DNA of 64,000 nt from Pseudoalteromonas tunicata (GTDB taxonomy: Bacteria; Pseudomonadota; Gammaproteobacteria; Enterobacterales; Alteromonadaceae), in NCBI RefSeq assembly GCF_002310815.1, contig NZ_CP011032.1, positions 2,644,001 through 2,708,000 of the forward strand, given 5' to 3'. Position 1 is the stretch's first letter, and each line of letters starts with the position of its first letter. The translations under genes and the position numbers were made by a program. The notes beneath the pieces are model-generated. The model saw only the letters and a program-made list of their open reading frames with translations. It was not told where the DNA came from and did no database searches. Below are positions 20,653-22,277 of the stretch, piece after piece.

Positions 20653-20734
20653 ATGGATAATAAACCCATCAAATTATTCTTTTAAACCGAGTTCGGGTAT
20701 TGTGAGACCCAGGCTTTAGCTGCAACTAAAGCTC

Positions 20735-20862
20735 TCTTTTGTGGTAGTTCGATTGAGCGATGGATCCTCTGTTGAGAGACCGATAACAAGAATGAACGCC
20801 ACAAAAGACTCCAAGCATCACACTCGAATAGTCTACTGGGTCTCGAACCCGCATTATGCAAG
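20735..20862 (+). ncRNA. Candidate IS110 bridge RNA (target and donor loops)
   Basis: A 10-bp perfect stem TCTTTTGTGG / CCACAAAAGA (20735-20744 with 20799-20808) encloses a 54-base loop. In it CGATTGAGC (20750-20758) is identical to the attC just left of the insertion (20637-20645), and TAACAAG (20784-20790) is complementary to CTTGTTA just right of it (21854-21860). Further on, ATAGTCT (20828-20834) equals the right end of the element (21847-21853). ATGCAAG (20856-20862) pairs with CTTGTAT at the left junction (20648-20654) with one G-T wobble. Order and polarity fit left-target, right-target, left-donor and right-donor guides of known bridge RNAs. The left-target match stops two bases before the presumed CT core. 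The RNA ends are not defined. Confidence 0.65.
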
Positions 20863-20878
20863 CAAGAGTTAGCTTATT

Positions 20879-21829
20879 ATGAAAACAAATACTAATCAAA
20901 ACATTAATGTCGGTGTCGATACCGGCAAATTTCAACTCGATATTTATATTCGCCCTCTTGATATCTATTTCACCGTTAAGAACGATGAAAAAGGGATTGC
21001 TGAGGCAATTAAAAAAATCAAAATTCACTCTCCAAACCGCATCATTATTGAAGCCACTGGCCGCCTTGAAATGCCCTTTATTATTGCATGTGCAAAGGCC
21101 AATTTACCTTTTGTCATTGCCAACCCAATACACATAAAACGCTTTGCGGGTGCCATTGGTCAACGCGCTAAAACCGATAAGCTGGATGCACAGTTAATTG
21201 CACATTATGGCGAAGCAATTAAACCCACACTCTCCACCCTAAAGCCTGACATTATGCAGACTATGAGTGATTTGGTTGCCAGAAGAAATCAGCTGTTAGT
21301 CATGCAAACGATGGAAAAAAACCGCCTGCAAATTTTACCAAAAGAGCTGATTTCAACCATCAAACCTATTTTAACGGCCTTTAAAAATCAGATTGAAAAA
21401 ATTGAAAATAAAATTCTAAAACTCATTGAATCATGCCCTGAATATTCAGCCAAAAACACGGTCCTACAAAGCATGAAAGGCATTGGTAAAATTGCCGCTG
21501 CCTCCATCATCAGTAACTTACCTGAGCTTGGCTATATGTCGAATAAAGAAGCCGGTGCATTGGTTGGCGTTGCGCCTATGAATCGCGAAAGTGGCCGCTA
21601 TAAAGGGCTTCGAAAAATTCAAGGTGGGCGGCATCAAGTACGCACCGTTTTATACATGGCGATGATGTCAGCCATCCAATCAAACCCTGTTTTTAAATCA
21701 ACTTATCAGCGATTAGTTGCTGCTGGGAAACCGAAAAAAGTAGCGCTTATTGCGTGTGTCAGGAAGATGATTGTGATCTTAAATTCGATGCTCAGAGACG
21801 GGGTAATGTGGGAAGCGCCAAAAGTTTAA
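20879..21829 (+). CDS. IS110-family transposase (DEDD recombinase)
   Basis: 316 residues. The N-terminal RuvC-like DEDD domain shows [23 protein letters not shown] and [16 protein letters not shown] with the acidic residues in place. The C-terminal transposase_20 domain follows in [20 protein letters not shown] and [19 protein letters not shown], containing the serine region used by the family. The frame is intact, so the element may still be active. It is the only complete recombinase gene in the integron region. The integrase and the intron reverse transcriptase are both frameshifted. Confidence 0.95.
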
Positions 21830-21857
21830 AATTAGCTATTGACGCCATAGTCTCTTG

Positions 21858-22277
21858 TTAGCTTGCCTTAGGCTTAATATGTGACCTTACAATATCGCCT
21901 GTTTTATTACGACTATGAAAGCTTAATAAATCTTTAAAGTTGAATTCAGAAACTTCAATAGTATTTTCACCCAACCAAGAAACTTTATATTCAAGTTCAT
22001 TAGGGTGACCATCTAATACGACCAAGACATTTTTATCCGCTGGTGAGTCAACTCGATTGACTGAAATTTGAGTTTCATAATTGGTTGTCGCACCACAATT
22101 TATAATTGTTACTACTGCCTCAATATCTTGATTAGGTGATATGAATATTTCATATTGCTCAGAGCCACACCAATCATTTGAATTGTTCAATAATAGGTAT
22201 AACGGCAAAAGAATAAGTAACAGCCCCCAAAACAATGCTGCTCCAACATTCCATAATGAGTTTAAAACTTTACTCAT
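21858..22277 (-). CDS. Small membrane-anchored protein (cassette gene)
   Basis: 139 residues; I do not recognise a family. One hydrophobic helix near the N-terminus, ALFWGLLLILLPLYLLL, is followed by a soluble domain with two cysteines, NDWCGSEQYEIFIS and TIINCGATTNYET, which could form a disulfide on the periplasmic side. AAGGAT lies upstream of the ATG. The stop codon overlaps GTTAGC, the start of its attC, now split by the IS110 element. It is the third cassette from attI. Confidence 0.7.
   Translation of the reverse strand: MSKVLNSLWNVGAALFWGLLLILLPLYLLLNNSNDWCGSEQYEIFISPNQDIEAVVTIINCGATTNYETQISVNRVDSPADKNVLVVLDGHPNELEYKVSWLGENTIEVSEFNFKDLLSFHSRNKTGDIVRSHIKPKAS

Follow-up and report, generated by a model that had tools for sequence, protein, structure and literature searches.

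In a window of 64,000 nucleotides from Pseudoalteromonas tunicata (contig NZ_CP011032.1, positions 2,644,001 to 2,708,000), an IS110-type insertion sequence interrupts an integron attC site, and its noncoding end upstream of the transposase gene (tnp) very probably encodes a bridge RNA that specifies attC, a reading drawn from comparative sequence analysis to which we give a probability of about 0.9. RNA programming toward attC had been proposed from the letters of the window, and the proposal finds support in permutation tests of guides against targets, a scan along the RNA and the class of sites occupied by the relatives. The element sits inside one box of an attC in a cassette array that lies on the - strand and starts from a split integron integrase gene (Table 1).

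The original prediction was right about the IS110 type of the element and less so about its span (20653..21862), the ends now being placed at the positions of Table 1 by analogy with IS621, in which, according to the available part of its structure paper, the cut falls after the T of the core (PMC11208158). The protein combines the two IS110 domains (PF01548 and PF02371), passes the NCBIfam model for RNA-guided IS110 transposases and aligns to IS621 in the PDB (E 3.2e-26), retaining the DEDD and Ser residues, features that place it in the IS110 family; the residue numbers in Table 1 assume two extra N-terminal residues in the PDB chain, an inferred offset. The noncoding stretch upstream of tnp measures 229 nt versus 26 nt downstream, a feature of the IS110 group proper, and the long downstream noncoding region of the IS1111 type is absent. 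The source genome (4.96 Mb, two contigs) carries five full copies with 98.5-100% identity.

Table 1. Features of the element, its predicted RNA and its insertion site, in window coordinates.
Feature	Position	Strand	Basis
Left part of interrupted attC (box YAACGCC 20562-20568, stem, left target)	20562..20649	+	stem score -13.2 vs -5.1 for shuffles
IS110-type element	20650..21855	+	ends of 51 copies; cut position by analogy with IS621 (PMC11208158, available part)
-10 box GATAAT of the promoter that would form on joining of the ends in a circle	20656..20661	+	junction analysis
Predicted bridge RNA	20690..20866	+	putative limits; model R1 matches 20700-20850
Closing stem, 5' arm (3' arm 20836-20845)	20703..20712	+	covariance structure, stem search
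Stem-loop 1	20713..20732	+	4/7 pairs with compensatory change
Target-binding loop (stem 20735-20750/20794-20808, hairpin 20762-20781, both target guides in internal loop)	20735..20808	+	
Left target guide, 9 nt of 11-nt loop 20751-20761	20753..20761	+	permutation tests, RNA scan
Right target guide TAACAAG, complement of CTTGTTA	20784..20790	+	sequence, comparison of relatives
Left donor guide ATAGTCT, identical to right end of element	20828..20834	+	comparison across elements
Putative right donor guide ATGCAAG, would pair with left junction	20856..20862	+	reading in window copy
tnp, 316 aa recombinase	20879..21829	+	DEDD/Ser residues D14, E58, D100, D103, S238 via IS621 alignment
-35 box TTGACG of junction promoter, 17-nt spacer to GATAAT	21839..21844	+	32/34 distinct junctions
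Right end ATAGTCT and core CT	21847..21855	+	ends of copies; letters read in window copy
Right target, leftover attC box TGTTAGC	21856..21862	+	sequence; ends of copies
Integron integrase gene of the array, split over two frames	25642..26611	+	reading frames, integrase search

attC sites are built of paired boxes of the form RYYYAAC...GTTRRRY with a stem. By eye, the interrupted site has the layout of an uninterrupted attC at about 24670-24768, and the insertion parts one box from the remainder; the window copy forms an attC stem scoring well beyond its shuffles (Table 1). Over all copies, 22 of 45 sites were equalled by no more than 0.05 of their shuffles, so the stem test proved too blunt and a count of boxes was added. 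Upstream, 34 of 55 left flanks contain a canonical YAACGC box, where shuffling expects 3.0, as do 48 of 76 independent left flanks (3.8 expected). Several of the flanks without this box are attC with a variant box when read by eye and some are not attC-like; two copies, L052 and L071, lack the box and stand at short sites that look attC-like. A loose list of attC motifs, which also admits false positives, left 21 of 124 left flanks unrecognised, three of which (L071, L122 and L195) are attC by eye. On the right, the flank starts with YTTGTTA in 47 of the 51 copies with both ends read, a count made by hand that includes near-identical copies from one genome (exceptions L015, L017, L052 and L071), and 59 of the 77 right flanks read in a second set start with TTGTTA, many of the remainder, which were not individually inspected, resembling parsing errors. 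Judged by the YAACGC counts, the relatives therefore stand mostly at attC sites, as anticipated, and relatives with the same loop at unrelated targets, which would have spoken against the original prediction, were not what was found.

The base before TTG depends on the site on the left and is nearly fixed by element lineage on the right. In L015 and L017 the third base also differs between the two sides, so the crossover should lie left of it. Such patterns are compatible with an N-T core that is cut behind its T, the arrangement of IS621 (PMC11208158, available part). A core inside TTG, argued from the shared TTG, was also considered and set aside, the N-T core fitting the accessible portion of the IS621 structure paper better and the sequence alone being indecisive. 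Of the CT core originally presumed, the T holds (98% of 125 left targets) and the fixed C does not (C 76%, T 19%, A 5%).

For the RNA, 37 of 58 aligned left ends were selected for alignment A1. The noncoding left end has a conserved structure of 34 pairs, 11 of them with compensatory changes, in which 97.5% of cells are paired and 68 cells are changed on both sides; on four of the five measures none of 500 shuffles scored as high, the exception being further pair types, where 12 did. Six of the 11 modelled pairs of the target-binding loop stem show compensatory change, and the 10-bp stem that had been read is present, at 20735-20744/20799-20808. A homologous stem without conservation would have told against the original prediction; the stem is instead conserved, with compensatory changes. 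The window copy alone gave a fold z of -3.05, with one of 200 shuffles as good. No Rfam family matched over the element at gathering level, two sub-threshold matches being taken as chance. All four guide segments were located where they had been placed beforehand: the target guides in the internal loop, the left donor guide in the single-stranded stretch after the target stem and the right donor guide directly 3' of the closing stem. The left target guide precedes the right one, that is, bottom-strand before top-strand, which is the IS110 order. Three relatives (L011, L035 and L068) have about 15 extra nt, with a palindrome-like ACCGGTNACCGG, between the closing stem and the right donor guide.

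This anatomy bears on the element's affiliation, since RNA-guided attC targeting is already published for the IS1111 family. Within the available text of the two papers, the IS1111-attC group comprises ISKpn4, ISPst6 and ISPa25 (PMC11187229) and ISPa21 (PMC11616780); like the present element they target attC, in the case of ISKpn4 and ISPst6 by way of a noncoding RNA whose binding to the transposase has been demonstrated (PMC11187229). That our element belongs to this group with a displaced RNA appears improbable. The class of target is the same, exceptions in RNA position exist within IS1111 (PMC11187229, available part), and near its two ends the element has one inverted pair of 8 bp (20680-20687/21824-21831). 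This pair, however, lies 30 and 24 bases inside the ends, as opposed to 6-7 and 3 in IS1111 (same source), and in a stretch that the relatives do not keep. The termini themselves offer just TATGG/CCATA, a 5-bp inverted match, and subterminal inverted repeats of the IS1111 type (7-17 bp near the ends) were not seen at the ends among the 25 longest of 27 inverted pairs. Moreover, the RNA lies upstream of tnp with the bottom-strand guide first, whereas members of the IS1111 family, as far as the available text states, usually carry theirs downstream, have subterminal inverted repeats and show the opposite guide order (PMC11187229). The separation is one of layout. Earlier work by Tetu and Holmes (2008) and by Post and Hall (2009) reportedly also dealt with IS1111-attC elements.

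Evidence for an RNA that reads attC comes from the left target guide. It had been read as CGATTGAGC, which does stand at 20750-20758 and again in the attC at 20637-20645; the limits were corrected to the 11-nt loop of Table 1, the last 9 nt of which carry the signal. In the window copy, a shift of one base from the IS621 register lets 6 of these 9 letters match the target (8 with wobble); the register itself gives 3 of 9. The 58 aligned left ends (56 parsed) yielded 49 distinct guide/target pairs, and 120 further loci (103 parsed, 17 missed) added 76 new distinct pairs, used as an independent set. Identity was scored in the better of two registers, the same choice being granted to permuted pairs. 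All 125 distinct pairs averaged 6.10 of 9 versus 4.77 when permuted (z 13.8; 0 of 20000 permutations), the 76 independent pairs 5.86 versus 4.69 (z 9.5), and one pair per guide (n=59) 6.05 versus 4.55 (z 10.1); the first 49 pairs gave z 8.7. With wobble, the mean match rises from 6.1 to 7.1 letters. The poorest matches (L066, L049 and L157) stand at 3 of 9.

The fit is partial and its register unsettled. Taken singly, the registers gave z 6.9 (IS621) and 10.4 (neighbouring) over the 125 pairs. In the 76 independent pairs the IS621 register gave 2.6, a value reached by 128 of 20000 permutations, and the neighbouring one 8.8; counting wobble, they gave 0.4 (7625 of 20000) and 7.9. Most of the signal in the new set is thus owed to the neighbouring register. 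Mean identities at offsets 0 to 5 (4.33, 4.95, 2.51, 1.86, 1.96 and 2.62) confine the signal to two neighbouring registers. When wobble is counted, the better fit lies one base upstream of the IS621 register for 76 of the 125 pairs and in register for 40, with 9 ties.

Specificity for attC could also come from the recombinase, or from the folded attC hairpin, any resemblance in the RNA being incidental. Most copies do stand at the same place in one class of folded site, and the left guide tolerates mismatches and two registers. A sliding scan along the whole RNA (122 of the 125 pairs) argues otherwise, as agreement with the target is restricted to the guide stretch: the guide 9-mer exceeds expectation by 1.33 letters, and windows outside the guide region by at most 0.20. 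Also, the 21 sites unrecognised by the motif list still match their guides (5.62 of 9 versus 4.55 for random guides, 0 of 5000), although a few of these sites are attC by eye. Lastly, L015, from a Colwellia MAG, has the left guide CTAACAGCT at a site CTAACAGCT-TATTA (9 of 9), its right guide is rewritten to TAATAAG against CTTATTA, and on reading the flank we cannot recognise this site, which both guides match, as attC; the loose motif list must class it as attC-like, as it is absent from the 21, and it is treated as not attC from that reading. With these observations, recognition by protein or hairpin seems very improbable. That the agreement stems only from co-inherited element and attC lineages is hardly credible, for, even though guides cluster by lineage and hosts may have attC types of their own, other stretches of the same RNAs share one descent and lack comparable agreement, so that descent alone is no explanation, and the effect persists in two groups of pairs taken by themselves, the 61 whose guides begin with GATTG (z 6.9) and, less strongly, the 19 with GATTA (z 4.8; both by identity in the better of two registers).

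Targeting by the RNA is also in keeping with rewritten guides other than that of L015, of which L130 appears to be the same insertion. Where guides diverge strongly, the target has changed to match in several cases: L052 and L071 share the guide TATCCTTAT at targets TATCCTTAT and TATCCCTAT, respectively, L053 has CGACCCATT at CGACCCAAT, and copies of Alteromonas gracilis have TTAATTTTT at TTAATTTTTT. On the right, the guide TAACAAG complements CTTGTTA at 21854-21860, exactly as predicted, and its last base pairs with the right-end base in 43 of 43 cases in the first set and 55 of 57 in the second, where L150 is a true mismatch and L202 appears to be a row without a read guide. Target guides thus match natural targets, with the caveat of register on the left and with a right guide too invariant for a strong test.

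The donor guides match the element's own ends, the right one as read in the window copy. The predicted repetition of the left donor guide at the right end (21847-21853) is confirmed and extends to the relatives. Guide and right end agree within the same element for 41 of 43 distinct elements when the last five letters are compared, and for 56 of 57 in the second set when seven are, counts that are mostly of one state (AGTCT in 31 of 43) and in which the parsing patterns themselves fix some letters. The exceptions are an L028-type element and one A-to-G change in the first set and L150 in the second; L212, with an unreadable donor guide, stands outside the 57. The last position occurs as T, G, A and C, the last once (L116). 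The right donor guide would pair, as had been suggested, with the left junction; the stretch opposite it reads CTTGTAT, and the pairing would include one G.T wobble. Joining the ends gives TTGACR-17-GAYAAT in 32 of 34 distinct junctions.

Among known systems, the element most resembles the IS621/IS110 bridge-RNA group, with which, as far as the available parts of PMC11208160 and PMC11208158 describe it, it shares the DEDD and Ser recombinase, the RNA upstream of tnp, the order of the four guides, a core ending in T and a junction promoter. In contrast, IS621 targets REP sequences and has its right donor guide in a closed donor loop (same sources), and the left guide of the present lineage is mostly one base out of the IS621 register. 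ISEc21, of the IS110 family, likewise has an upstream RNA, this guide order and a circle with a junction promoter, its target being a linear stretch of IS3-family transposase genes, unlike attC (PMC11187229, available part). A Shewanella integron survey met IS110-type elements, including ISSde13, and in its available part reports no IS interrupting attC (PMC9229058). In the open-licence literature, which leaves most subscription papers outside, we came across no IS110-type element described as having an upstream RNA directed at attC, and the targeting logic of the present one appears to be undescribed there. The element nevertheless has named kin: the Shewanella elements ISShwo3 and ISSwp5 (database names), which that literature did not yield under their names (one paper came up, with ISSde13 only), have proteins 85-86% identical to that of the present element and are among the matches listed in a protein search in which the 8000 best candidates were scored and the best 120 listed. 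The closer protein of L009 is 94% identical.

Counting the source genome each time, model R1 of the RNA was found in 37 of 196 genomes of the family, 36 of 394 of the order and 8 of 369 of the class. It matches L111, from a Pseudoalteromonas plasmid, and had no match in seven plasmid IS110 relatives (L105-L110 and L112); an IMG/VR pattern scan and a phage search gave no match. In one related genome (G445) the RNA occurs 12 times, in several cases at intervals of a few kb. The suggested spread within cassette arrays agrees with the clustering of copies near integrons: 12 of 45 lie within 25 kb of an integron integrase gene, where 0.65 would be expected under uniform placement (ten multi-copy genomes searched and eight counted, G613 and G899 being left out). 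In an unrooted tree of 34 rows (7 of 39 chosen loci had no usable reading frame, and no IS1111-attC elements were identified for inclusion), transposases with the R1 RNA are set apart from the others by a single branch (87/92, 84% of bootstrap trees), support that we regard as moderate given several long outgroup branches and the missing root.

Other elements adjoin attC sites. A roughly 155-base unit, its ends inverted (GAGGCTGTAGAATT / AATTCTACAGCCTC), adjoins attC boxes at 20402-20561 and 19383-19490; a unit at 29694-29846 has only the last 28 bases in common with it. In the source genome, 26 of its 40 scored matches exceed 100 bases, some beside copies of the IS110-type element, and it looks like a small non-autonomous element with a preference for attC. 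A group II intron (about 22800-24650; Rfam RF02005 at 24376-24634), with a reverse transcriptase split over two frames, also adjoins an attC, one that belongs to the array of the IS110-type element. Of the integron integrase genes of this genome, three are split near the same place (C1 2394213-2395150, C1 2669660-2670605, which is that of the window, and C2 911911-912848) and a fourth (C1 2266860) is whole; the array may have been duplicated after the integrase break.

Taken together, a scheme can be proposed in which the 9-nt left guide would read the variable attC stretch beside the conserved box, the 7-nt right guide would read that box (TAACAA on the cassette strand), and the two donor guides would read the element's own ends. 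The recombinase, presumably binding this RNA, would join the ends in a circle, creating the TTGACG-17-GATAAT promoter for RNA and tnp, and the circle would be inserted between the two T of CTTGTTA, splitting one box off the attC.

We consider it fairly likely that RNA-guided attC parasites arose a second time, separately, in these elements, as an IS110-type clade settled on integrons, with a right guide locked on the conserved attC box, a left guide drifting or rewritten to follow local attC variants, and an occasional escape to other sites. This would also suggest that attC targeting was reached by two differently built RNAs. The 125 natural guide/target pairs, in which one half of the guide is nearly fixed and the other varies, offer a test bed for mismatch tolerance and retargeting of bridge RNAs. 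Integron arrays are vehicles of gene exchange among bacteria; by breaking attC sites, an element can freeze such arrays or remodel them.
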